From IMG/VR virus record IMGVR_UViG_3300005613_003639, positions 1-33,912 of that record: a DNA stretch of 33,912 nucleotides; one strand, written 5' to 3'. This document shows positions 3,056 through 20,379 of this stretch, in pieces (the first letter of the stretch is position 1; every line of letters starts with the position of its first letter). Origin of the DNA: a virus. Both the position numbers and the translations under genes were made by a program. The notes beneath the pieces are model-generated. The model was not told the origin of the DNA and ran no database searches. It saw only the letters and a program-made list of their open reading frames with translations.

Positions 3056-3223
3056 TCAATATATAAACAAATTTTCTTCGAAGGTTTCATATATCTTTTT
3101 CCAGGTTTTCTTTCTTGGTCGCATTTTACAAGCCTCCATAATTGCCTCATGAAGATTTTTTGCTTCTTTTTGCTTTAGAATAATAATCGCATCTCGATTT
3201 TTTTCATCTGTAAATATTCTCAT
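3056..3223 (-). CDS. small charged protein, 55 aa
   Basis: A 55-codon frame from ATG 3223 to TGA 3056. Its start overlaps the TGA of the recombinase gene as ATGA, and its stop overlaps the region of the exonuclease start, so it fills the gap between them exactly. The product is lysine-rich and helical (LHEAIMEACKMRPRKK). I do not recognise a family. Being fitted between two recombination genes suggests a small accessory DNA-binding protein. Confidence 0.6.
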   Translation of the reverse strand: MRIFTDEKNRDAIIILKQKEAKNLHEAIMEACKMRPRKKTWKKIYETFEENLFIY

Positions 3224-4374
3224 ATGAATTTTGGTTTCCTCCCTAATTTTAAGGATTCTTCAATATCATTCCAAACAGTTTCAGCTATTTGTTTAAGATC
3301 ATCTTCCAAAGAATTATCTTCAATATATTTAACCAAGGCTTTTTCTTTTAAGAAAACACCTAATTCTTTAGCATCAATTGCAGTTGTAGATTTACCATCA
3401 ACTGTTCTTGTTCGGGTCTTCCAATGCTCCTTTCCATATTTGGAATTCAAAAAATTAATTATAGAACCGATATCATCGACCCCATAATCATAGAAAAGAG
3501 GAGTTATGATATTTCTCCTTTTTCCTGAGAATTTATTCTTTACAACTTTTATCTTAGAGGCAATTCCTATTTCTCTTTCTGTTTTATAAAAACGTTGTAT
3601 GATAGTTAACCACACTCGATGAGATGGGAAGAATTTAATAGCATTCCCCCCAGTGACTATCTTGGGATTAAACATAGCATCTGGGCCGAAGTTATCCTTC
3701 GTCTGAGAGACAATAACCCAAAGGGAGTTAGTTTGTTTTATTTTACCGACATTTAGTCGACAAAATTTATGAAGCATTTTAGCTTTCCCATCTCCATAAG
3801 AACCCTCTTCCTTCTGGTCTCTTTTCCTTTTACCAATATTAACCTTTTCCTTTGCCTCCTCATATTTAGATCTTAAAACATCCCAACTATCTGTGATGTA
3901 GATAAAAGGTTTTCCATCTTTTTTCAATGCCTTTTTACAAGCTTCATGAATCTCATCACCAGTCTCCTCAGCATATACAGAGTTTTTAAGGATCAGACGA
4001 TCGGTAAATTTTACATCTTTTTTATTAAATAAGTATTCAAGATCAAATTCATTGGTTTGTTCTGCATCGTCATAATAAAGATCATAATTATCAAACCTTT
4101 TGTCGTAACAAATTGTTGCTAGCATTGTTAGAGCAAGGAAAGATTTTCCTGCTGAGGAGTCCCCTATAAGATTGACAATTCTTCCGGGTCTATAAGCACC
4201 TTTACAGCTATCAGAACAAGCCAGGTCCAACATTGTAGATCCAGATGGTATTAACAATACTGGACCTGGCTTTTGAGAAGAAGGGCTTTTTTTATATTTC
4301 TTTTTTATCCCTTCTATATGTTTTTCTGTAGAGGTTCGAGATAACTTTCTTTTTTTATTAGAATGGGATGTCAT
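3220..4374 (-). CDS. RecA/UvsX-like recombinase
   Basis: A 384-residue RecA-fold ATPase. After a basic N-terminal tail (residues 1-40) come IPSGSTMLDLACS, Walker A GDSSAGKS at about 72-79, the catalytic-glutamate strand YYDDAEQTNEFD, Walker B-like PFIYITDSWDVL, SLWVIVSQTKDN, and a region where RecA loops L1/L2 would lie (NPKIVTGGNAIKFF). It would form the strand-exchange filament that repairs and starts phage replication. It overlaps the upstream SSB gene by 17 bases, so the two are probably co-translated. The C-terminal region carries 28 residues (from KEHWKTRTRT to ELGVFL) encoded by an 85-bp sequence repeated exactly at 17467-17551. Confidence 0.88.
   Translation of the reverse strand: MTSHSNKKRKLSRTSTEKHIEGIKKKYKKSPSSQKPGPVLLIPSGSTMLDLACSDSCKGAYRPGRIVNLIGDSSAGKSFLALTMLATICYDKRFDNYDLYYDDAEQTNEFDLEYLFNKKDVKFTDRLILKNSVYAEETGDEIHEACKKALKKDGKPFIYITDSWDVLRSKYEEAKEKVNIGKRKRDQKEEGSYGDGKAKMLHKFCRLNVGKIKQTNSLWVIVSQTKDNFGPDAMFNPKIVTGGNAIKFFPSHRVWLTIIQRFYKTEREIGIASKIKVVKNKFSGKRRNIITPLFYDYGVDDIGSIINFLNSKYGKEHWKTRTRTVDGKSTTAIDAKELGVFLKEKALVKYIEDNSLEDDLKQIAETVWNDIEESLKLGRKPKFI
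3349..3433 (-). repeat. 85-bp exact repeat, copy 1 (in recombinase gene)
   Basis: All 85 bases match 17467-17551 exactly, and both copies are read in the same frame inside different genes. The encoded segment starts KEHWKTRTRT and ends AKELGVFL. Sequence outside these borders is unrelated between the two genes. Confidence 0.93.
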
Positions 4375-10681: not shown

Positions 10682-11725
10682 TTATAATTCCGTCTCTTGC
10701 ATTAGCCCAACTAAAAGTTTGTATGAATCAGATGAAAATAAGATTCGGTCAGTTCCTACTGCTACCTTTGTTGATTCATTTAAAGCTCTTTTGAAGAATT
10801 CTGGGTTAATATGGAAAGATGTTTTCTTTTTTACTTTAGTTTTGTTATAAAATTCTTTTATTATATTTCCGGATACATTTGAGCTTTCTAACATAATGGA
10901 GTTATCTTCCAAAGTTACCTTTATTTTTCTATCTACATCTTGTTCTCTTAAAGTAAAAGTGGAAGCAACTTCCACAGCATTTGATAGTTTTTCAGGAGTT
11001 GGGAAACTCACTACTATATCAAATACAAAGTAATCTGTATAATCTGGATATTCATTATAGGAAAGTCTTGAACAAAAAATTCTATCGTCTGATGTTTTGA
11101 AACAAACCCAAGAATCTATAATACAATAACTAATTACGTTATCTATAAAAGATAATTCCTTTGCGGATTCTTTAGGGAGTAAAAAAGGTTGGTCAATTTT
11201 TTCATCCATAGTATATTCTGATATCTGAGCATCGTCACAAGAAGTTATTTTGTCTTTTAAAATTTCTAAGAAACAAATATCAGAAAGAGTAGCATTATCT
11301 GAAGCAGTTGGATAACAGAGTCGAATAGCTTCTATAAAATTTTTCGGTAATGGATACCATAGGTTCTTATCTCCTATATTCACAGGGATTTCTTCCAATA
11401 AATCATCAATTTTTATTGTATTAAATGTAGCTTTTATTTTATCTTTAAAAGCTCGAAGGGTAAGTTTTGTTTTATCTTTGGACACTATCAAATGGGTTTC
11501 TGGATCGGTAATTCTGACTAATGTTTTATAGAATTCATCAGAAGCTACCCCGATATGGAGGTTAGATAAAAAGAATGGGGAGATTATACATATTCTATCG
11601 TTATATGAATATATATGTTGATTATGAAATACAAAACAATTTGATCCTTCAATATCTTCTCCTTTGCCTAATCCGGACTTCAATAATGAAAGAGTGTTAA
11701 AAAGTTCTTTGGTCTTTATTATCAT
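10682..11725 (-). CDS. DnaN-like sliding clamp
   Basis: 347 residues, close to the length of bacterial beta clamps. The sequence has the beta-rich, repeated-domain character of DnaN: NTLSLLKSGLG at the start, FYKTLVRITDPETHLIVSKD, a middle domain near LWYPLPKNFIEAIRLCYPTA, and a third domain with ISYCIIDSWVCFKTSDDRI and the closing FSSDSYKLLVGLMQET, resembling the beta-clamp C-terminal strand. It sits between dpdA and the polymerase, with only 5 bases to the polymerase gene. Overall identity to known clamps is low and the call relies on length, strand pattern and context. Confidence 0.75.
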   Translation of the reverse strand: MIIKTKELFNTLSLLKSGLGKGEDIEGSNCFVFHNQHIYSYNDRICIISPFFLSNLHIGVASDEFYKTLVRITDPETHLIVSKDKTKLTLRAFKDKIKATFNTIKIDDLLEEIPVNIGDKNLWYPLPKNFIEAIRLCYPTASDNATLSDICFLEILKDKITSCDDAQISEYTMDEKIDQPFLLPKESAKELSFIDNVISYCIIDSWVCFKTSDDRIFCSRLSYNEYPDYTDYFVFDIVVSFPTPEKLSNAVEVASTFTLREQDVDRKIKVTLEDNSIMLESSNVSGNIIKEFYNKTKVKKKTSFHINPEFFKRALNESTKVAVGTDRILFSSDSYKLLVGLMQETEL

Positions 11726-11882
11726 GATTCAATTCCTCGTTTATAAAATTTTCTAAAAGTTTAGGATCGGAATCTTTTATATCCCTTAAACGGAAGTAGG
11801 ATAAAAGAATGTTTTTAGTGTTGGCTTTGTCTCCGATTTCTACAAAAGATCTCTCCATCGATGTAGCTAAGAATATTTTCAT
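11697..11882 (-). CDS. DpdA N-terminal-module-like protein, 61 aa (displaced or truncated paralogue)
   Basis: Its ATG overlaps the dpdA stop as ATGA. The sequence MKIFLATS...NILLSYFRLRD has the shape of the first strand and the 'I-S-x-x-R-L-R' strand that precede the DSGAF motif in full-length phage DpdA proteins. The neighbouring DpdA begins directly at FLDSGAYSA and lacks those strands. This frame therefore looks like the missing N-terminal piece moved downstream, or the remnant of a second DpdA. After about residue 45 it ends in a charged tail. It overlaps the clamp gene by 29 bases. The similarity is from memory of family patterns, so confidence in function is moderate. Confidence 0.5.
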   Translation of the reverse strand: MKIFLATSMERSFVEIGDKANTKNILLSYFRLRDIKDSDPKLLENFINEELNHDNKDQRTF

Positions 11883-12754
11883 TTTCTTTTCCTCATAAAG
11901 TAAGTTTGTTCTCTTTTATATTTCCACGGCCACTTAGGCATTGCTGACTCTAAATCTTGGTAATATAGAGCATTTAAAATAGAACGTTGTATGTAATTAT
12001 TACATAAGCCCTCCTCAACTACAACTTCTTCCACTATAGTATCACCATTTTCATCTATTCTTTCTTTAGTGGTGGATTTGCCAATTTTAAATCCTTTCAT
12101 ATCAAAATAATTTTTTATTTGTTCCTGCTTCTTTTTTGTGTAGGTATTAAAATGTTTTCCCACTTGCTTAATTAATGGAGACCGGATAGAAAGGAACACT
12201 CTTAATGCTCGCAATTTTCTTGTCTTTGATTCGTAGTGAACATATTTTCCATCTTTCCAGATGGGGATCAATACACCACCAAACCTTGCAGTCTGAATCC
12301 AAGAAGTACTATCTGCAGAAAACCATGGATATCGAGGAAGGAGAACAATAGAAGTAATACCAAAGGCATGAACTTTTACTTTTGGGTACCCTTCAGAATC
12401 CACTAGATATCTGGACCAGAGTCTGTCCAAATAATCTCTCTGAACTTGTATAGTTTGTCCAGTACCCGCCACTCCTCCAATAGCTATATAATCAGATTTC
12501 TCGATATATTTTTTAAGGAATTCCACAGGTGATCCTACATGAAATACAGGAAGAGGATCTACCCCTTTTGATTTCATATACTCCCAGTTTTTATAACTGG
12601 CTTCTGCATTTCCTATTACATCAAGATTAGCATATACGTATAACGATTTTTTGGTTTTCTTTATATAATTTATGTAATTATCAATATTTATTTCTGCGTT
12701 CTGAGTCATAGCTGAATATGCCCCAGAATCTAGAAATATGTTTCTTTTTCTCAT
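11879..12754 (-). CDS. dpdA: DpdA, DNA guanine transglycosylase (7-deazaguanine insertion)
   Basis: 291 residues with the pattern of the TGT-related DpdA family: FLDSGAYSAM at residues 7-16, a central YVYANLDVIGN, VFHVGSPVEFLKKYI, YIAIGGVAGTG, VHAFGITS, and WFSADSTSW. The Asp in LDSGAY and the Asp in SADSTSW correspond to the two catalytic aspartates expected of these base-exchange enzymes. The protein would replace guanine in phage DNA by a preformed 7-deazaguanine, protecting it from restriction. It starts inside the Gat-QueC stop (ATGA overlap), so the two are coupled. It begins unusually close to the DSGAY motif; the usual first strands are absent here and similar sequence is in the next gene. 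Confidence 0.85.
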   Translation of the reverse strand: MRKRNIFLDSGAYSAMTQNAEINIDNYINYIKKTKKSLYVYANLDVIGNAEASYKNWEYMKSKGVDPLPVFHVGSPVEFLKKYIEKSDYIAIGGVAGTGQTIQVQRDYLDRLWSRYLVDSEGYPKVKVHAFGITSIVLLPRYPWFSADSTSWIQTARFGGVLIPIWKDGKYVHYESKTRKLRALRVFLSIRSPLIKQVGKHFNTYTKKKQEQIKNYFDMKGFKIGKSTTKERIDENGDTIVEEVVVEEGLCNNYIQRSILNALYYQDLESAMPKWPWKYKREQTYFMRKRK

Positions 12755-14103
12755 TTTACTAGCCCCAAAAGTTTTTGTATCTTGTATTGTTTAGGATTTG
12801 TCCATGGATAAGGATCTAGTTTTTGATCAAGGTAAGTTTGAGAATCTGTTAAACCCGCTCTTTTAAAAGCATATCTTCTAGTGGTACAACATCCACAAAC
12901 TCCACAGGGACGGGAAAATCCTTGGTCACATGACCAGGTTTTATCATAAGGAACTTGTAAATATGTTCCAATATGGAGAATTTCGGGTTTCATTACTCTT
13001 CCAAGAACCCGTTTTATTTTTACCCCTTTCAATGTTCCATAATCTAACAATTCGTTGTAGAGGTAAATAAATTCCAAATCGTTATCGGAATAGCCAGTAG
13101 CTTCTTCTTCCATATTGTTACCATAATAAATCCACTTTATTCCTTTGGCTTCGGCAAAAGCCGCAGCATAAGCTATCATTAACATATTTCTTGCCGGAGT
13201 CCAACATAAGGTACTTTCTACTGATAGCATTCCCAAGGGAAGATTGATGGAAGAATCTGTCAGAGGACTGGATCCCCACTTTCCAAGATTTGTTAAATCT
13301 ACAAATTCTGCGGGGACTTTTAGATCTTTAGATATATTTTCAACAGCCTCTTTTTCCTTGTTATTTGATAACTGCCCATAATCAAAATGAATTAAAGTTA
13401 GATCATGTCCATATATCTTTTTACCAATATATGCTGATGTAGTTGAGTCAATACCCCCACTAATTACCACAACTGATTTATTTGGGTCGAGATCAGGTGT
13501 TGATGACCAGAATTTTCTTTTAATTTTTTTGGTTTTAGCAATTCCAGAATGATTGAATGTTACTTTATAGTTTTGGGGAAACCGTCTTGGATAATTCTCA
13601 GTAAATATGTGATCGGAATCTTGAAATATAAGAAATTCCTTCTCTGAGGCAAAAAGAAAATAATCCTTTGTTTTTACGAACCATAAAGTTTTAAAGTTTT
13701 TAGCTATAGTTAATAAATCACTCTTTTTATTGTATACTCCAAAGGCAAAACCCCCAACAAATTCTTCACAGCACTTCCAGCCCAATATAGCCCAAAGATT
13801 AATTGCTGTATAGGTATCTACTTCTTTAAATGGTAAGTTATATTTTTCTATTAAGTCTCGATCATTAGATAACGTTCCATTATATACCATAACTAAATTA
13901 TGTTCTTGTAGTGGAAGTGGTATGTCATCAGCCTCTGGGAGGGGTTGTGCTCTAGAAACCCCTATATATCCCCACCCCCATTCATATCTTCCGTGACCAT
14001 CTCGTCCTCTTAGTCGAGATGTTTGTTCTAATCGAGGTTTGTACTTATTTATAAAGATCTTTCCCCTGTGGGAGAAAGCTGCCGCTCCGTATATACCACA
14101 CAT
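12751..14103 (-). CDS. Gat-QueC: class II glutamine amidotransferase fused to QueC PP-loop domain
   Basis: 450 residues. After the initiator Met comes CGIYGAAAF: Cys2 is the N-terminal nucleophile of class II amidotransferases, and VMVYNGTLSND is the matching glutamine-site segment. From about residue 205 a QueC-type PP-loop domain follows: VVVISGGIDSTTS, HFDYGQLSNNKE, TPARNMLMIAYAAAFAEA, and a zinc site CGVCGCC near 410. Gat-QueC proteins are known in Crenarchaeota and in phages such as 9g, where they turn preQ0 or its precursor into the archaeosine base using glutamine-derived ammonia. Here it is followed by dpdA with a 4-base overlap, which links base synthesis to insertion. Confidence 0.9.
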   Translation of the reverse strand: MCGIYGAAAFSHRGKIFINKYKPRLEQTSRLRGRDGHGRYEWGWGYIGVSRAQPLPEADDIPLPLQEHNLVMVYNGTLSNDRDLIEKYNLPFKEVDTYTAINLWAILGWKCCEEFVGGFAFGVYNKKSDLLTIAKNFKTLWFVKTKDYFLFASEKEFLIFQDSDHIFTENYPRRFPQNYKVTFNHSGIAKTKKIKRKFWSSTPDLDPNKSVVVISGGIDSTTSAYIGKKIYGHDLTLIHFDYGQLSNNKEKEAVENISKDLKVPAEFVDLTNLGKWGSSPLTDSSINLPLGMLSVESTLCWTPARNMLMIAYAAAFAEAKGIKWIYYGNNMEEEATGYSDNDLEFIYLYNELLDYGTLKGVKIKRVLGRVMKPEILHIGTYLQVPYDKTWSCDQGFSRPCGVCGCCTTRRYAFKRAGLTDSQTYLDQKLDPYPWTNPKQYKIQKLLGLVK

Positions 14104-14114
14104 AATAATAACCT

Positions 14115-15065
14115 CTATACAAAAGGATTAACTATATTACCAAGATACACCTGTTCAGCAATATAAGTACAATTCCATACACACCCATTACAGTTTTTCA
14201 CTTCCTCTCTGATGTTATTAATCATAGAATCTATGTTAAAAAATGGATCGTTAATATTGATTCCAGTTTTACCAATGTAGTCCATACACGCCCATATCTT
14301 TCCATCTGCATCAATAGCAGGGTTGGTGCCCGTTTTGCACTTCCAAAGTTTTTTATCATTAGCTCGATCAATAGCAAACTTTAGATATTCTAAAGGGTCA
14401 GCGAAGGTTGTTTTAATAGAAGGGTAGTTTTCAATAAGGTAAAGAATAAAATCTTTGGTTTTATTACCCACAACTTCCATCTCTGGGATATTTCCTGAAG
14501 GATTTGATAATCCCCTGCTTTCTTGGTTGTAACTCTGCATAACACAGAATACCCATTTACAGTTAAACCCCTCTGCAAAATTGAGAACATCATACATTTC
14601 TTCTACAACACAGTCTCTCAAAACAGATACAAGAACAATCTCCCCTTTGTACTTAAGAGTTTGGCGAAGATACAATACAAGATCCTTAGCTGCTTCACTT
14701 TTGACTATATCAGAAGAACGTTTTTTGTTTTTAGTGTTATGATAATCCATCGACAAAGAAATGGATGACAATCCTTTATTAACTAGTTTTTTGTAAACTT
14801 CTCGTTTTGAAGTACTATTTGTAACCAAAGAATAAACGGCATCAATATCTTCCATGTAATGAATTATATCTTCTATTCCAGGGTATAAAGTAGGTTCACC
14901 ACCTATGATGTTGTAGAAGGCTGTATGAGGAGTAATAATATCCAAAGCTTTTTTCCATTCTTCGATACGCATCTCTGGAACTTTATTTGAACGGACTCCA
15001 CAGTAGTGACATGCCAAATTACATCTCCTTGTAATATAAAGCGACATAAATTGAAATAGTTTCAT
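14115..15065 (-). CDS. radical-SAM enzyme with SPASM/twitch-like C-terminus (1)
   Basis: 316 residues. The CxxxCxxC iron-sulfur motif is in YITRRCNLACHYCGV at about residues 10-24, followed by NIIGGEPTLYPG, the SAM-binding GGEP motif. The C-terminal third carries further cysteines (WKCKTG; WACMDY; CNGCVWNC) typical of an auxiliary cluster domain. It is not the QueE of this locus, which is at 18828-19487. It lies between Gat-QueC (11 bases away) and a second similar enzyme. A role in modifying the deazaguanine base or another substrate is inferred from position only. Confidence 0.8.
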   Translation of the reverse strand: MKLFQFMSLYITRRCNLACHYCGVRSNKVPEMRIEEWKKALDIITPHTAFYNIIGGEPTLYPGIEDIIHYMEDIDAVYSLVTNSTSKREVYKKLVNKGLSSISLSMDYHNTKNKKRSSDIVKSEAAKDLVLYLRQTLKYKGEIVLVSVLRDCVVEEMYDVLNFAEGFNCKWVFCVMQSYNQESRGLSNPSGNIPEMEVVGNKTKDFILYLIENYPSIKTTFADPLEYLKFAIDRANDKKLWKCKTGTNPAIDADGKIWACMDYIGKTGININDPFFNIDSMINNIREEVKNCNGCVWNCTYIAEQVYLGNIVNPFV

Positions 15066-15078
15066 ATTTTATCTCCTC

Positions 15079-16047
15079 CTAATATTTGTGTACATAGTTG
15101 TCAAAAGAAGAATACCCTTTCTTTATCAACCAAGCATCATAATGTGTGGTCCAAAAACATCCTGGACATTTACTTTTAATCTCTTTTCGATAAAACCCAG
15201 TGAAATCTGAGAAGGCCTTTTCATCTAGATTCCATACTTTCCATTGTCTACTTGTATAGAAATCATCACATGGAAGGACTGTTCCATCTGCGTCTATGGT
15301 TATCCAACTTGGAAATTCTTGGTTGGAACAGTTCCATTGAAATTTGGAAACAATATTGGGATTTTCAACCATGTACTGAAGAAGTGGGTTTGATGGGTGG
15401 ATTTTGAATCCTTGGGATTTATAAGATTGTATCCCTTTACAAAATGCCTTTACCCCATTTGGTTTCATTAAAAGATTTAATGCATCTCCTCTACATTTAG
15501 TTCCAGACTGCTTTCGATCAGGATGGATAAAATCGAAACTGAACCATATTTTTTTATCAATTACTTTCTTCAGATTTTGTAGTATATCTTTATAGTTTTG
15601 AGAGGTAACTGTAGCAACGATTTCCACATCCCTAATGTTTGGGAGAGAGTTGAACCAATGTACTAAAGGTAAGGCTTTTTCTGTTTTAGTTTTAGAATCA
15701 TTATCATACGCGACGAAATCATAACTAACTGTTAAAGATCGTAACCCATGATGATATAGTTTTTCAATTTTTTCTTTGCTGTTAGAAACTATACCATCGG
15801 TTATTATTGTGGTTAAAATTCCTAAATCTTCTGCTGTTTTTATATATTCGGGAAGTCCTTCGAAGTCGTGCAAAGGAGATGCTCCGTAGATTGCTATGAA
15901 TCGACAATCTAAATTTTTCAACCGGTGTAAACCTTCTATCATTTTGTAAGTAGGCGCACGAGGAATTGGTTGTTTCATCGCACAAAAAGAACAATTCAAA
16001 GGACACTTACGAGTCCATAAGATTTCTGCTTTTGTTAAATTAGCCAT
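15079..16047 (-). CDS. radical-SAM enzyme with SPASM/twitch-like C-terminus (2)
   Basis: 322 residues. CxxxCxxC occurs in WTRKCPLNCSFCAMK at about 12-26. The GGEP position reads AIYGASPLHDFEG, so the usual GGE is altered to G-A-S. The C-terminal part includes WITIDADGTVLPCDDF and KCPGCFW, matching the DADG...C / C-x-x-C layout of its neighbour, so the two are probably diverged paralogues. It overlaps the QueC-like gene by 13 bases and precedes radical-SAM gene 1 by 13 bases. The substrate is unknown. Tight packing with QueC-type genes is the main clue. Confidence 0.8.
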   Translation of the reverse strand: MANLTKAEILWTRKCPLNCSFCAMKQPIPRAPTYKMIEGLHRLKNLDCRFIAIYGASPLHDFEGLPEYIKTAEDLGILTTIITDGIVSNSKEKIEKLYHHGLRSLTVSYDFVAYDNDSKTKTEKALPLVHWFNSLPNIRDVEIVATVTSQNYKDILQNLKKVIDKKIWFSFDFIHPDRKQSGTKCRGDALNLLMKPNGVKAFCKGIQSYKSQGFKIHPSNPLLQYMVENPNIVSKFQWNCSNQEFPSWITIDADGTVLPCDDFYTSRQWKVWNLDEKAFSDFTGFYRKEIKSKCPGCFWTTHYDAWLIKKGYSSFDNYVHKY

Positions 16048-16679
16048 TGTCTCATCCTGTCCTGTCGTTCTATAGGATACTTATGCAATCGGTTAAGGTA
16101 ATAGATTTTAATTTCCTCTTGCAATTCATATCCAGGGTGAATATTATTATTCATCAAAGCTACATACCTTCGAAAACAAGAACCACAATTACCACAATGT
16201 CCTTCTTCAGAGCTGAAGCATCCAACCGTTGACAAAAGTCCTTTAACATCATTTATATTCTTTACAAACCATCCCACCATCTCTGTTTTATCCATGTGAC
16301 AGAATGGGGAAGAAACTTTTACCTCTCTTTCTGCTAAGAAGGTCAACAATTTAGAAGATGAAGAAAAAAACTCGTGAGATCGATCTGGTATAGACATCTC
16401 GTCTTTTTGCACGATCATCCATACTTTTGAAGCCCCTTCATTAACTGCTAACATAGAAAGATATAAGTTCCTTAGAGGTATGTTAGCGTCATCTTCTTCG
16501 TATTTGCCAATGGTGGACATTTCCATAATTTTAGTTTTTGGGATTGTCTTTATTACGGCCTCAAATTCTTTAAATCTATATCTATGCCCAAGATTTGCAA
16601 ACAAAGTTTTCGGTTTTCTTAAATAATGCCATGCTATATAACTGTCCATCCCTCCACTATAGAGCAATATCTCTTTCAT
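16035..16679 (-). CDS. queC: QueC-like PP-loop ATPase (7-cyano-7-deazaguanine synthase or paralogue)
   Basis: 214 residues, near the normal QueC length. ILLYSGGMDSYIA at 4-16 is the PP-loop. IPLRNLYLSMLAVNEGA corresponds to the conserved P-x-R-N helix of QueC, PDRSHEFF to its substrate segment, and VGCFSSEEGHCGNCGSCFRRY to the four-cysteine zinc site. QueC converts 7-carboxy-7-deazaguanine to preQ0 with ATP and ammonia. A separate Gat-QueC is also encoded, so this gene may make preQ0 while Gat-QueC continues to the amidine, or it may have taken another substrate. Divergence from typical QueC, including a short lysine-poor loop after SGGMDS, leaves that open. Confidence 0.75.
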   Translation of the reverse strand: MKEILLYSGGMDSYIAWHYLRKPKTLFANLGHRYRFKEFEAVIKTIPKTKIMEMSTIGKYEEDDANIPLRNLYLSMLAVNEGASKVWMIVQKDEMSIPDRSHEFFSSSSKLLTFLAEREVKVSSPFCHMDKTEMVGWFVKNINDVKGLLSTVGCFSSEEGHCGNCGSCFRRYVALMNNNIHPGYELQEEIKIYYLNRLHKYPIERQDRMRQWLI

Positions 16680-17103
16680 TACCCCTCCTTTGGTATTTTA
16701 ACATATAAAGCGGGGTGGGCTTTCCAAGTGGTTTGGTAAACTGGATACCTTTTTTGTATTCAAATCCCTGACTAATACAATAACGTTCTATATCAACATT
16801 GTGTATTGACCCATACAATTTTTTAACACTCTTATTTTTGTTTTTAGCCTCTTTTGGAATATAAACTACTTGTGATTCTGGATCAATGTAAAATATAATT
16901 CTTTCTGGATCTCCGTTTACTTCTCTTACTACAAACCCCACCCCGGTTCTTTCTTTTGGAAATACATTTTGTCTTGTAAAAACGATACCCGTATCCTTTT
17001 TTAACTTCATAGTGCTATGGTTGGGTAGAAGGCCTTCTTCTTTTTTTGTCCATCCTTTTGGAAAAATATCTAATTTTTTGTATTTTACTTTTTTGTTTTG
17101 CAC
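16657..17103 (-). CDS. hypothetical protein, 148 aa, in the modification cluster
   Basis: 148 residues, basic, rich in beta-type segments (GVGFVVREVNGDPERIIFYI; QVVYIPKEAKNKNK). It overlaps the QueC-like gene by 23 bases, so it is translated with it. No catalytic motif is recognised. It could be a small DNA- or nucleotide-binding accessory of the cluster, but nothing in the sequence proves this. Confidence 0.6.
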   Translation of the reverse strand: MQNKKVKYKKLDIFPKGWTKKEEGLLPNHSTMKLKKDTGIVFTRQNVFPKERTGVGFVVREVNGDPERIIFYIDPESQVVYIPKEAKNKNKSVKKLYGSIHNVDIERYCISQGFEYKKGIQFTKPLGKPTPLYMLKYQRRGNERDIAL

Positions 17104-17125
17104 TTTAACCTCCTATTTTACCTTC

Positions 17126-17428
17126 TCACTCTCTATTATTGGTAAAACCATCTAAAGATTCAAAGCTTGAGACTGCCTTATCATCTATATAAATATCCGC
17201 TTGGGGTTTACCCATAAATAAGGGGGCTATTGGAAAATTATGTAATCTCAACCATCTCTCTGTGATGATCCTGTCTATCTCTGGTCTCGAGGTGAAGTAA
17301 ATTATAGAATGGGTTTTGGATAAATGGTTAACTTTTTCTACCACCCCTGAAAGAGGTAGGGCTTCAGAATATTTTGTATGCCCCACCTCTTCACATAAGG
17401 TCCCATCAATATCGAAGCAAATAATCAT
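17126..17428 (-). CDS. small HAD-superfamily phosphatase
   Basis: 100 residues. Motif I is CFDIDGTLCEE (residues 4-14, both catalytic Asp present), motif II YFTSRPE, and the acidic motif IV region DIYIDDKAV. There is no cap domain, so it is a minimal HAD hydrolase. It starts in an ATGA overlap with the gene upstream. Such enzymes dephosphorylate nucleotides or small phosphates. In this cluster it could act on pterin or deazaguanine intermediates, for example dihydroneopterin triphosphate by-products, but that is inference. Confidence 0.78.
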   Translation of the reverse strand: MIICFDIDGTLCEEVGHTKYSEALPLSGVVEKVNHLSKTHSIIYFTSRPEIDRIITERWLRLHNFPIAPLFMGKPQADIYIDDKAVSSFESLDGFTNNRE

Positions 17429-18099
17429 TCATTCATTCCTACTAATTGTAAGGTATTCTCCTCCACTAAGAAAACACCTAATTCTTTAGCATCAATTGCA
17501 GTTGTAGATTTACCATCAACTGTTCTTGTTCGGGTCTTCCAATGCTCCTTTTTAAAAATCCAACCTCTTTTTTCTCTATCTTTTATATGAGCAAGGATTT
17601 TCTTTTCTGAACAATTGGCATAATCTTTTATTCCTCTTTTTTCCACCTCTTCACTTACTTTCTCACAAAGATTGTCCATAGAGATTTTCTTGAGGAGCAA
17701 GGCGTCTACGAAGGATGTCATCATTGTATCTTTCGTTTTCTCGATTTTACTGGTCAGATTTTCAAAAGCATCTCCACTCAGATCTTGAGGGGCTCCCTTC
17801 TCTTTCTTCTCTTCCTTTTCTTTCTTCTCTTCCTCAACCGTTTCTTCCTCAACTTCTTCTTCCGGTTTTCCGATAAGCTCTTCGAGGTGCTCTTCCCAAA
17901 AGTCAATACAATCTTCGGGGGTCTCATCAATCAGTTCAGCATCATCAAGGGCCAGCATTATCCTTTTGAAATTTTCCTGCATCTCTTCGAGCTTGGTCCC
18001 TTTTCCAACGACTGGGATCTTTTCTTCTTCGATTTTTTCCAAAAGGTCTGTTTCTTTGTTTAGCACTTTTACAATTCTCATCAAGTCTTTTCTTTCCAT
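17425..18099 (-). CDS. acidic coiled-coil protein carrying the recombinase-derived 28-residue module
   Basis: 224 residues from the ATG at 18099, preceded by AAAGGAGAGTAAAA; an in-frame ATG at 18135 has no such site. Residues 85-115 are a Glu/Lys run, and the rest looks helical. Near the C-terminus 28 residues (KEHWKTRTRT to ELGVFL) are identical to part of the RecA-like recombinase and encoded by an exact 85-bp repeat. The last 15 residues then differ. The first 190 residues match nothing I recognise. Acquisition of the segment by recombination is likely; a shared binding surface is possible. Confidence 0.7.
   Translation of the reverse strand: MERKDLMRIVKVLNKETDLLEKIEEEKIPVVGKGTKLEEMQENFKRIMLALDDAELIDETPEDCIDFWEEHLEELIGKPEEEVEEETVEEEKKEKEEKKEKGAPQDLSGDAFENLTSKIEKTKDTMMTSFVDALLLKKISMDNLCEKVSEEVEKRGIKDYANCSEKKILAHIKDREKRGWIFKKEHWKTRTRTVDGKSTTAIDAKELGVFLVEENTLQLVGMNE
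17467..17551 (-). repeat. 85-bp exact repeat, copy 2 (in the 224-aa gene)
   Basis: Exact partner of 3349-3433, 14,118 bases away, in the same reading frame. Here it forms nearly the C-terminal end of an otherwise unrelated protein. Confidence 0.93.
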
Positions 18100-18169
18100 T
18101 TTTACTCTCCTTTTAGTTTTTAGTTTTTCATTCATTGATTTTTATAATTTAGTTACTATCTCCTCCTTT

Positions 18170-18757
18170 CTATTCTTTAATTAATGATATAAGTTCTTCT
18201 TTTGCTTGATTACCACCTTCTAAAAAGCATCCTTTTAAAGATGATGTTACCATTACTGAGTTTTGTTTTTGAACTCCTCTCATTCTCATGCATAAATGTT
18301 GTGCTTCTATTATACAAGCAGCTCCTTGAGGTTTTAAATGTTCCATAAGAGCGGAAGTGATTTGATCACCTATTCTCTCTTGAATCTGTAGTCTTCTTGA
18401 ATACATTTCAACCAATCTGGCTAACTTTGATATTCCAATAATTTTATCATTGGGAATATAAGCCACATGAGCCTGTCCCGTAAAAGGGATGCAATGGTGC
18501 TCGCACATCGAATATAATTCAATATTTTTAAGGAGAATAATTTGATTATAACCATCACTATCGAAAGTGGTCATAATATCTTCAACCTTTTGATTATAGC
18601 CCGAGAACAGAAATTGCCATGCTTTGATGAACCGTTTTGGGGTATCTATTAATCCTTCTCTTGTTGGATTTTCACCAATAAATTCAATTAATCTCCTAAC
18701 ATTTGCTTCTTCTGGCATTTCATTATCAGCTGGTGAATAATACTTTTTTAATTTCAT
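18170..18757 (-). CDS. folE: GTP cyclohydrolase I (FolE)
   Basis: 195 residues, the usual FolE core length. Visible motifs: [19 protein letters not shown], the zinc and active-site [40 protein letters not shown], and [19 protein letters not shown]. These include the Cys-His-Cys zinc ligands and the histidine pair needed for ring opening. The enzyme makes dihydroneopterin triphosphate from GTP, the first step of preQ0 synthesis. It is the first gene after the promoter at 18792-18821. Phages carrying their own folE next to queD and queE use it for DNA deazaguanine modification. Confidence 0.96.
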
Positions 18758-18791
18758 GTCGTAAATACTTCCTTCCTTTATTCTTAATTGT

Positions 18792-18821
18792 ATTATATAG
18801 TATAAAATCGATTTTTATTAG
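18792..18821 (-). promoter_or_regulatory. phage promoter, CTAATA-N18-TATAAT
   Basis: CTAATA at 18821-18816 and TATAAT at 18797-18792 on the minus strand with 18 bases between. It begins 7 bases after the queE stop and should drive folE and the genes after it. The flank AAAATACTAATAAAAA is also found at the 27969 promoter. Confidence 0.75.
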
Positions 18822-18827
18822 TATTTT

Positions 18828-19487
18828 TTACAAAACATCTAAAATTTTATGAATTTGAACGTTGATAATAGCATCGAAAACTTTATCTTGAATCAACCAA
18901 TCTACTATAGGCATACGATTCTCAAGGGTTCTACAAGGACCAAATACTGGGCTGAAAGCAAACTTAGCATGACAACCATCACTTTGTAAATAGTTCTTTT
19001 CTCTGATTGCTGTTCGATAATCGTTCTTATCTGTGATTACAAATTTCACAAAGTCAGAAGAATTTAAACCAACGAATAGTTTATGATCCATTTTATCGTA
19101 ATTACCCGATCCTGGTAATTTGAAATCCGTTACCCAACTACCAACTCCATATCCTTCCAGTGGTAAAGAACCATTGGTTTCTACAGATGTATTAAATCCA
19201 GAATGATATAATTTCTTTGTAAGCTCATAAAATTCCTTCATTTGAAATAATGGTTCACCTCCTGTTATAGTTATTTTATGTCCTCCAAGTTTGGAAACAA
19301 TATCGATAATTTCTTTCACCTCCATTTCTTTACCACTATTAGGATCTGCGGCATATTTGGTGTCGCAGTACAGACAAGGATTTTTCCAGAAATTACATCC
19401 AGCTACTCGGATGAACGTTGTTATACATCCTTGATGAAAATAGTTCACTTCTCCGTCAATTGATTGAAATATCTCATAGATTTTCAT
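18828..19487 (-). CDS. queE: QueE, 7-carboxy-7-deazaguanine synthase (radical SAM)
   Basis: 219 residues. It starts IYEIFQSIDGEV, the QueE opening. The iron-sulfur motif is RVAGCNFWKNPCLYCDTKYA with a six-residue first spacer (C-x6-C-x2-C) in place of the usual CxxxCxxC; variant spacing is known in QueE. ITGGEPLFQ follows. TDFKLPGSG and SPVFGP mark the substrate half. It converts 6-carboxytetrahydropterin to 7-carboxy-7-deazaguanine. I use the ATG at 19487 because AGGAGGTGATC, a full anti-SD match, lies upstream; a GTG at 19499 falls inside that site. It precedes folE. Confidence 0.93.
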   Translation of the reverse strand: MKIYEIFQSIDGEVNYFHQGCITTFIRVAGCNFWKNPCLYCDTKYAADPNSGKEMEVKEIIDIVSKLGGHKITITGGEPLFQMKEFYELTKKLYHSGFNTSVETNGSLPLEGYGVGSWVTDFKLPGSGNYDKMDHKLFVGLNSSDFVKFVITDKNDYRTAIREKNYLQSDGCHAKFAFSPVFGPCRTLENRMPIVDWLIQDKVFDAIINVQIHKILDVL

Positions 19488-19495
19488 TAAAGGGA

Positions 19496-19681
19496 TCACC
19501 TCCTATTTATTGGGGATAAATCAATTGTCATTTCATCTGATTCTAAACACAACTCTCTATATCCATCATGATCCTCTTGAGCTTCCTTAATCGACTCAAG
19601 GTCACCCATTTCTTTTGCTTTTGCAAGTGTTCTAGCTTTATTACAAAGTACGCTGAAGTTTGTAACAATTTTCAATGCCAT
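19496..19681 (-). CDS. hypothetical protein, 61 aa
   Basis: 61 residues, charged and helical (ARTLAKAKEMGDLESIKEAQ), ending in a TGA that overlaps the queE Shine-Dalgarno region, so it is probably coupled with queE. Family not recognised. Confidence 0.55.
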   Translation of the reverse strand: MALKIVTNFSVLCNKARTLAKAKEMGDLESIKEAQEDHDGYRELCLESDEMTIDLSPINRR

Positions 19682-19783
19682 TTCATCTCTTTTCTTTTTA
19701 TAGGTTCGATTTTGATCTCATATCCTATTACTTCTAAACTATATTTAACATTTTCTGCTTCAGATAATGTTAAACATCTTCGA

Positions 19784-19963
19784 TCAATCCTTTTTAATTC
19801 TAATCATCGGAACATCTTTCCCCCACCATTTTCTTGCTGCTTTTTTGCTTTCAAAAGCAAAACAAATCCCTATACATCCTTCTGGTAATTTTAAATTTGT
19901 GTGGGTTCCTTGTATGGACACCTCTCCGGGATGTAGTTTTAAAGCAATAACCGGTTGTTTCAT
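19784..19963 (-). CDS. small protein, 59 aa, probably continued in another frame
   Basis: Starts in an ATGA overlap with the queD stop (ATG at 19963). The product is beta-rich (LHPGEVSIQGTHTNLKLPEG) and ends ESKKAARKWWGKDVP...KKD. Just before the TGA at 19784, another frame opens and continues to 19676 with a protein-like sequence (CLTLSEAENVKYSLEVIGYE) but no start codon. A one-base shift at AAAAAGGATTG would join the two into about 95 residues. The motif ARKWWG is shared with the protein at 28574-28936. Function unknown. Confidence 0.6.
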   Translation of the reverse strand: MKQPVIALKLHPGEVSIQGTHTNLKLPEGCIGICFAFESKKAARKWWGKDVPMIRIKKD

Positions 19964-20379
19964 TTTCTTATCCATTTCGCACAAGAATTCTCAGTCTCCC
20001 ATAAGAGAAGTTCTGTTAATTTTACTCCTTCTGGAAGTACTGAATTTGAATTAATGAAAATTGCTATATACTGAACTATGTTTTCAGCCGTTGGGTTTGA
20101 GAAGACATCATTTAGATATCTATGATCAAATTGATTGATAATATGCTTTGATACTATTTTTTTAAGTTGCCCGAAATCCATAACCATCCCACTGTTCGGA
20201 CCATATCCTTCGGGTTTTATAGGACCTTCAACTTCTACAGATAATTTGTAGCTATGACCATGCTGGGATTTACAAACTCCTTGATGATAAGGCAGATGGT
20301 GTCCCGCCTCAAACCGAAATGTTTTTTTCACTCTTATAATTCCTCCACTATATAATATCACTTCATTTTCTCTGGCCAT
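19960..20379 (-). CDS. queD: QueD, 6-carboxy-5,6,7,8-tetrahydropterin synthase
   Basis: 139 residues, the normal QueD/PTPS length. Motifs: KTFRFEAGHHLPYH, GVCKSQHGHSYKLSVEVEG (catalytic Cys and the HGH zinc ligands), GMVMDFGQLKK, FDHRYLND, PTAENIVQYI, and LLLWET with the substrate-binding Glu. It turns dihydroneopterin triphosphate into 6-carboxytetrahydropterin, the QueE substrate. ATG at 20379 follows GGAGGATTTCA. It is upstream of queE and folE, so the three early steps are in order queD-queE-folE, with two small genes in between. Confidence 0.95.
   Translation of the reverse strand: MARENEVILYSGGIIRVKKTFRFEAGHHLPYHQGVCKSQHGHSYKLSVEVEGPIKPEGYGPNSGMVMDFGQLKKIVSKHIINQFDHRYLNDVFSNPTAENIVQYIAIFINSNSVLPEGVKLTELLLWETENSCAKWIRK

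Follow-up and report, generated by a model that had tools for sequence, protein, structure and literature searches.

The window analysed here is a metagenomic virus record of 33,912 bases (IMG/VR record IMGVR_UViG_3300005613_003639), taken at its whole length. It contains a module of open reading frames (ORFs), all on the minus strand, in which the DNA guanine transglycosylase DpdA and the genes of a 7-deazaguanine pathway stand together with two radical-SAM enzymes (rSAM1 and rSAM2), a divergent QueC-family enzyme (QueC2) and a small HAD phosphatase (HAD). In related viruses rSAM2, QueC2 and HAD travel with dpdA and displace the canonical QueC en bloc, and the substrate motif of QueC2 is altered, which supports the proposal of an earlier note on this DNA that the extra genes form a tailoring set. 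ORF calling and profile searches recovered each of the genes which that note had reported, at the following positions.

11879..12754, minus strand: DpdA, DNA guanine transglycosylase, 291 residues (aa) (phrog_887, 5e-55)
12751..14103, minus strand: Gat-QueC, glutamine amidotransferase-QueC fusion, 450 aa, with a YSDN motif (PF06508, 3.8e-46; GATase_7, 1.5e-11)
14115..15065, minus strand: rSAM1, radical-SAM enzyme with CxxxCxxC and a four- or five-Cys C-terminal end (PF04055, 1e-16)
15079..16047, minus strand: rSAM2, radical-SAM/twitch enzyme, 322 aa (PF04055, 4.8e-10; SPASM weak, 0.005)
16035..16679, minus strand: QueC2, divergent QueC-family PP-loop enzyme, 214 aa (PF06508, 1.1e-15)
16657..17103, minus strand: orphan ORF of 148 aa with a GTG start (no family assigned by profile searches)
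17126..17428, minus strand: HAD, small cap-less phosphatase, 100 aa (phrog_1238, 1.6e-17; LNS2, 1.6e-8)
17425..18135, minus strand: accessory protein of 236 aa with a charged linker, adjoining folE (assigned by place and build)
18170..18757, minus strand: FolE, GTP cyclohydrolase I (PF01227, 2e-69)
18828..19499, minus strand: QueE, 7-carboxy-7-deazaguanine synthase (PF04055, 6.7e-10; NCBIfam QueE models at about 3e-37, under their curated cut-offs; phrog_2076, 1.1e-25)
19960..20379, minus strand: QueD, 6-carboxytetrahydropterin synthase (TIGR03367, 3.2e-27, above cut-off; PF01242, 1.3e-29)

By its predicted defining genes the system is a member of the DpdA/7-deazaguanine kind: FolE, QueD and QueE are all present, together with a DpdA that carries both catalytic Asp residues (D9 of LDSGA and D148, invariant among 19 aligned homologues). 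In the Pfam profile search of the window proteins DpdA gave no significant match; the DpdA of phage 9g matches the DpdA family profile at 7e-63. The set of queD, queE, folE, Gat-QueC and dpdA, which the earlier note had read as a coherent route, corresponds to the folE, queD, queE, gat-queC and dpdA of the 9g pathway to dG+ (archaeosine in DNA) (PMC6884629). Overlaps of 4 to 25 bases had been described throughout the cluster, and four junctions are of this kind (DpdA/Gat-QueC 4, rSAM2/QueC2 13, QueC2/148-aa ORF 23 and HAD/236-aa ORF 4 bases), but gaps of 11 (Gat-QueC/rSAM1), 13 (rSAM1/rSAM2), 22 (148-aa ORF/HAD) and 460 bases (queE-queD) separate others. The 148-aa protein listed as part of the cluster is indeed encoded there but is an orphan outside the conserved set, with no family in profile searches, no convincing phage match and no relative in the compared loci. 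The 236-aa ORF, a module gene missing from that list, belongs to the operon and resembles, in place and build and without a sequence match, a gene found beside folE in 15 of 20 related loci. A stretch of this accessory protein (17425-18135) is similar to one in the UvsX-like recombinase of the window (3220-4374; phmmer 5e-14).

An altered QueC-family enzyme

Canonical QueC is recognised by the motifs SGGxDS, YxQxHxxE, VPxRN and YPDC and by a zinc site; Tyr35, Arg99, Tyr131 and Tyr189 are essential, and the Tyr of YPDC is essential for the formation of preQ0 by the E. coli enzyme (PMC13329287). The equivalent Tyr of Cap9 stacks against the base, and the equivalent Asp reads the deazaguanine edge (PMC13279940). 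QueC2 keeps the SGGxDS ATP loop and the C(x)nCxxCxxC zinc site, and in all 27 sequences P68, R70 and N71 (PxRN), K131 and the four zinc Cys are invariant, with a Tyr right after the first Cys in 26 of them. The YPDC motif, in contrast, has become [VITA]-x-D-[KR]: D99 is retained in 27/27 and Lys or Arg replaces the Cys at position 100 in 27/27, while Tyr at position 97 is found in none, and the YxQxHxxE motif is displaced. Lacking two defining motifs, QueC2 is, on the evidence of its sequence, not a canonical QueC. Given that the Asp is kept and the stacking Tyr is lost, it probably still binds a 7-deazaguanine, in a pocket that has changed.

The AlphaFold2 model of QueC2 (mean predicted local distance difference test score, pLDDT, 95) has QueC (3bl5, 2pg3) and Cap9 (9nto) as its nearest solved folds, and the QueC2 profile is equidistant from the two (Cap9 1.8e-11, QueC 1.7e-11). 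Since Cap9 couples 7-carboxy-7-deazaguanine (CDG) to a protein through the amine of the N-terminal glycine, the QueC fold can use amines beyond ammonia.

A third QueC-like PP-loop protein, of about 225 aa and with the motif ATGG[LIM]DST, lies beside QueC2 and HAD in related loci (given here by L numbers) without a radical-SAM gene: L041:7614-8279, L062:4427-5107, L079:7642-8313 and L092:6655-7386. A split Gat domain was considered for these four loci and rejected, the extra protein being a QueC-like PP-loop protein with ATGGxDST.

The cassette in related viruses

Relatives were collected from IMG/VR by scans with rSAM2 alignments and a DpdA alignment, followed by hidden Markov model (HMM) annotation. 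About 23 further distinct virus contigs have rSAM2 next to QueC2 and DpdA, nearly always with HAD, and in every locus of the rSAM2 clade the three occur together, HAD being absent only from L001 and L014, which represent one virus. Radical-SAM relatives without dpdA (L015-L019) are more distant and fall outside the rSAM2 clade in the tree. QueC2 and HAD form a single polypeptide in L009, L010, L012 and L013, and this fusion in four contigs points to one joint reaction of the two.

The DpdA-anchored set comprised 80 loci in 70 groups at 90% DpdA identity, of which 55 held both FolE and QueE; its query alignment was drawn mostly from cassette loci. Among these 55 dereplicated loci, and by Fisher tests that ignore kinship, QueC2 is associated with HAD (13/16 against 1/39, p=5e-9) and with a radical-SAM gene (9/16 against 1/39, p=1.6e-5), and excludes canonical QueC (0 of 27 against 16 of 28, p=1.5e-6); HAD is present in all six Gat-QueC loci and a radical-SAM gene in five of the six. 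Given these co-occurrence counts, the association of the genes is not one of chance. The exchange is seen between L028 and L064, sister loci in the DpdA tree with a support of 99 (identities of 70% for DpdA, 74% for the clamp, 65% for QueE and 64% for DnaB). L064 has a canonical QueC and a small ORF (3291-3710) that to the eye reads like DUF6884, a DpdC domain, and two members of the ORF set to which it belongs have DUF6884 matches, whereas L028 carries rSAM2, QueC2 and HAD along with a methyltransferase and a further ORF that looks like one. This block swap indicates that the cassette acts in place of the QueC step. QueC2 is the sole PF06508 (QueC-family) protein on whole records (up to 104 kb), and no QueF was found on them above cut-off, the weak match in the window falling within FolE.

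The radical-SAM enzymes separate into two kinds. rSAM2 carries the signature W-x-C...TxDxDG...CDD...CxGCxWxTH, and in the alignment C15, C19, C22, C240, C260, C294 and C297 are invariant or nearly so, giving CxxxCxxC and a C-terminal cluster; its AlphaFold2 model (pLDDT 92) shows a radical-SAM core and, towards the C-terminus, a part that bears four conserved Cys. The SPASM/twitch-like ends that the earlier note had seen in both enzymes have their cluster Cys, although rSAM2 has a single four-Cys set of the twitch type and not a full SPASM domain. The best solved fold is BlsE, with a TM (template modelling) score of 0.64 and 18% identity, followed by PqqE and viperin, with MoaA and DesII lower, and these predicted likenesses do not fix the reaction of rSAM2. 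Membership of either enzyme in the RaSEA, QueE or viperin families was rejected, no NCBIfam match coming near cut-off; the RaSEA model is absent from the 12 NCBIfam matches of rSAM2 and from the best 25 of 55 of rSAM1. The best viral match of rSAM2 is a 571-aa protein named '7-cyano-7-deazaguanine synthase', whose name and length suggest a radical-SAM/QueC fusion.

The 450-aa Gat-QueC and rSAM1 co-occur only in the window, L007 and L026, each virus having either both or neither (the Gat-QueC of the window is 64% identical to that of L007). Loci with a Gat-QueC of about 540 aa (L077, L082, L086 and L095) have HAD, QueC2 and a radical-SAM protein that falls, with moderate support, outside the rSAM2 clade, some of these proteins being labelled rSAM2 by the HMM annotation; L109 has Gat-QueC, HAD and QueC2 without a radical-SAM gene. 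These patterns indicate that rSAM2 pairs with QueC2 and HAD, and a second radical-SAM kind with Gat-QueC. The co-occurrence with the QueC-like gene in dpdA viruses that the earlier note had put forward as a check on both radical-SAM enzymes accordingly holds for rSAM2, while rSAM1 pairs with Gat-QueC instead.

In the HAD alignment the catalytic residues are conserved, with D6, D8, R48, T56 and K74 invariant, and the motif IV Asp is not in every row; the motifs are those of a small, putative phosphatase-type protein, and its nearest entries in the PDB are 1xpj and 9iqw, 'capsule biosynthesis protein'. Extra ORFs of QueC2 loci include methyltransferases, three short-chain dehydrogenases/reductases (SDR), glycosyltransferases of types GT2 and GT1 and a myo-inositol-1-phosphate synthase. 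None of the methyltransferase, SDR, glycosyltransferase or inositol-phosphate synthase kinds is found among the 41 extra ORFs of canonical-QueC loci, which include QueF and a DUF5591 (ArcS-type) domain.

Several loci have features of their own. At L115:7871-9001 the myo-inositol-1-phosphate synthase (PF01658, 9.7e-34) lies between QueC2 and DpdA, and FolE2 replaces FolE; at L040:9987-11240 a GT1-type glycosyltransferase lies between rSAM2 and QueC2. Between FolE and QueC2 at L001:5319-7847 stands a run of as many as three GT-A-like ORFs, one a clear GT2, one weak and one without a Pfam match, and these hint at a glycosylated base. DpdA is split at L005:8677-10875 by a long, intein-like insert with a homing endonuclease look, and intein-like inserts are also present in QueE (L008, L012) and Gat-QueC (L095). 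Two adjacent dpdA genes share one module at L105:7946-9876, and FolE appears by eye to be fused to an N-terminal phosphoribosyltransferase-like domain at L002:8679-9644 and L105:3562-4554. Single-sequence viral scans with rSAM1 and with Gat-QueC returned no match, whereas alignment scans with rSAM2 and Gat-QueC did. A first rSAM2 scan of genome contigs was empty, and a wider alignment then gave one contig of a metagenome-assembled genome, L122 (JAQTTG010000010.1), labelled Sulfuricurvum, which has the same module order next to phage replication genes. This may point in the direction of Sulfuricurvum for the host of the virus, although the phage contig may be misbinned.

A proposed route and its rivals

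The best overall explanation, to which we give about an even chance, is a DpdA operon in which a tailoring cassette takes over from the usual QueC step. FolE, QueD and QueE would make CDG. QueC2 would use ATP to activate the CDG carboxylate and, like its relative Cap9, couple it to some amine that is not free ammonia; HAD may strip a phosphate from the amine partner or from the coupled side chain, and rSAM2 may remodel the side chain through hydrogen abstraction. DpdA would then put this base, complete or nearly so, into DNA in exchange for guanine. In the window and two relatives Gat-QueC and rSAM1 could contribute a branch to an amidine of the archaeosine type, or one more step, and the presumed effect is that virion DNA is shielded from host nucleases. 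It is quite probable that the cassette tailors a 7-deazaguanine and fairly likely that the resulting base is something other than dPreQ0, dADG or dG+; the amine-coupling route could go either way, and a sugar or cyclitol side chain is a tentative guess. It is conceivable, though rather doubtful, that a widespread virus lineage practises radical-SAM hypermodification of a DNA base: an amide ligase of the QueC family, a phosphatase and a radical-SAM enzyme would together give a 7-deazaguanine with an extended side chain, built on an amine that resembles a cyclitol or sugar and is in some viruses methylated or glycosylated as well.

Several points weigh against this explanation. The DNA product is a prediction. 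The Fisher tests count related viruses as independent, and on the DpdA tree there are about nine changes of QueC2, with only three contrasts on well-supported branches, too few for significance; the direction of these three is as expected, in that canonical QueC goes opposite to QueC2 in 2.8/3 and HAD goes the same way in 2.5/3 (averages). The accessory genes differ from virus to virus, and the methyltransferase count is only indicative, given that four proteins were added by hand. The likeness of rSAM2 to BlsE is remote, with PqqE, viperin and MoaA nearly as close. Finally, there are QueC2 relatives without rSAM2 or HAD (L004-L006, L110, L112 and L117), and QueC2 may therefore just make preQ0 or an amide.

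This last point favours the possibility that QueC2 is a fast-evolving QueC which still makes preQ0, with rSAM2 (and rSAM1) slightly altering preQ0 or the inserted base and HAD having a minor or nucleotide-recycling role. QueC2 stands in the place of QueC and keeps the ATP loop, PxRN, the Lys, the zinc Cys and the deazaguanine-reading Asp. However, this is unlikely, given that the essential Tyr of YPDC (PMC13329287) is absent in 27/27 and YxQxHxxE is displaced, and that the QueC2-HAD fusions point to one joint reaction. Archaeosine might alternatively be reached by an ArcS/RaSEA-like route, with dG+ alone in the DNA: QueC2 would supply preQ0 or an adduct, and cleavage of an amino-acid adduct by the radical-SAM enzymes would yield the amidine. 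Such a route has a precedent in the euryarchaeal ArcS and RaSEA (PMC11298593), and the window has the Gat-QueC that with DpdA gives dG+ in 9g (PMC6884629). It is nevertheless decidedly unlikely: no RaSEA family match was seen for rSAM1 or rSAM2, 17 of the 20 rSAM2 loci compared have no Gat-QueC in view, and, as E. coli needs no more than Gat-QueC and DpdA to form dG+, and can do so in the absence of QueC (PMC6884629), QueC2, HAD and the two radical-SAM enzymes would be superfluous.

A very improbable alternative is that QueC2 and the radical-SAM enzymes modify a protein or peptide and not a DNA base, for example against host defence. QueC2 is as near to Cap9 as to QueC, and SPASM/twitch radical-SAM enzymes often act on peptides; yet the cassette genes replace the base-making QueC and adjoin dpdA in every case, the module ORFs include no conserved small partner except the folE-adjacent accessory gene, and the 148-aa ORF is not conserved.

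Comparison with known systems

All five genes of the 9g pathway have homologues in the window, and polymerase, clamp and dpdA adjoin alike; the examined stretch of 9g differs in having no match to QueC2, HAD, rSAM1 or rSAM2. Both the Gat and the QueC domains of Gat-QueC are present, as in the dG+ type, but that type has no further tailoring enzymes and the window has these four in addition. The phage enzymes DpdL, DpdM and DpdN are said (Cui et al. 2023) to tailor 7-deazaguanines as a decarboxylase, a methyltransferase and a formyltransferase, with no radical-SAM enzyme among them. For a radical-SAM/QueC/HAD branch in phages no description was found in the literature searched, which did not cover subscription papers. 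Known phage 7-deazaguanines bear small groups. The conserved QueC2/HAD/radical-SAM cassette, which takes over from QueC in many viruses, predicts a DNA base both new and larger and a radical-SAM step in DNA modification, and it names genes for testing.

The nearest folds of rSAM2, those of BlsE, PqqE, MoaA and viperin, share only 14-19% identity with it. BlsE is the blasticidin cytosylglucuronate decarboxylase, an enzyme of nucleoside-sugar chemistry, and we know of none among the four that acts on a deazaguanine. The euryarchaeal ArcS attaches lysine to preQ0, and RaSEA, a radical-SAM enzyme, turns the adduct into G+ (PMC11298593). The window would share with this pair a coupling enzyme and a radical-SAM enzyme acting on a 7-deazaguanine, and differs in having no RaSEA sequence match, in that the coupling enzyme would be a PP-loop protein and in that the target would be DNA.

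With canonical QueC, QueC2 has in common the fold, SGGxDS, PxRN, the zinc Cys and the C-terminal Lys; it differs in the loss of the Tyr and Cys of YPDC, in the displaced YxQxHxxE, in its fusion or linkage to HAD and in being mutually exclusive with it. Among relatives of the fold, joining of CDG to a protein amine has been shown for Cap9 (CBASS IV) and only proposed for QatC (Qat). No CD-NTase or QatB partner was recognised in the Pfam search of the module ORFs, although Pfam has no model for QatB. QueC2 and Cap9 agree in the CDG-reading Asp (D99, 27/27) and in the profile match at 1.8e-11, whereas QueC2, unlike Cap9 and QatC, is viral, stands beside dpdA and the CDG pathway and has lost the stacking Tyr. 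The cassette would tie the DNA of phages to QueC-family amine coupling, a chemistry known from CBASS and suggested for Qat defence.

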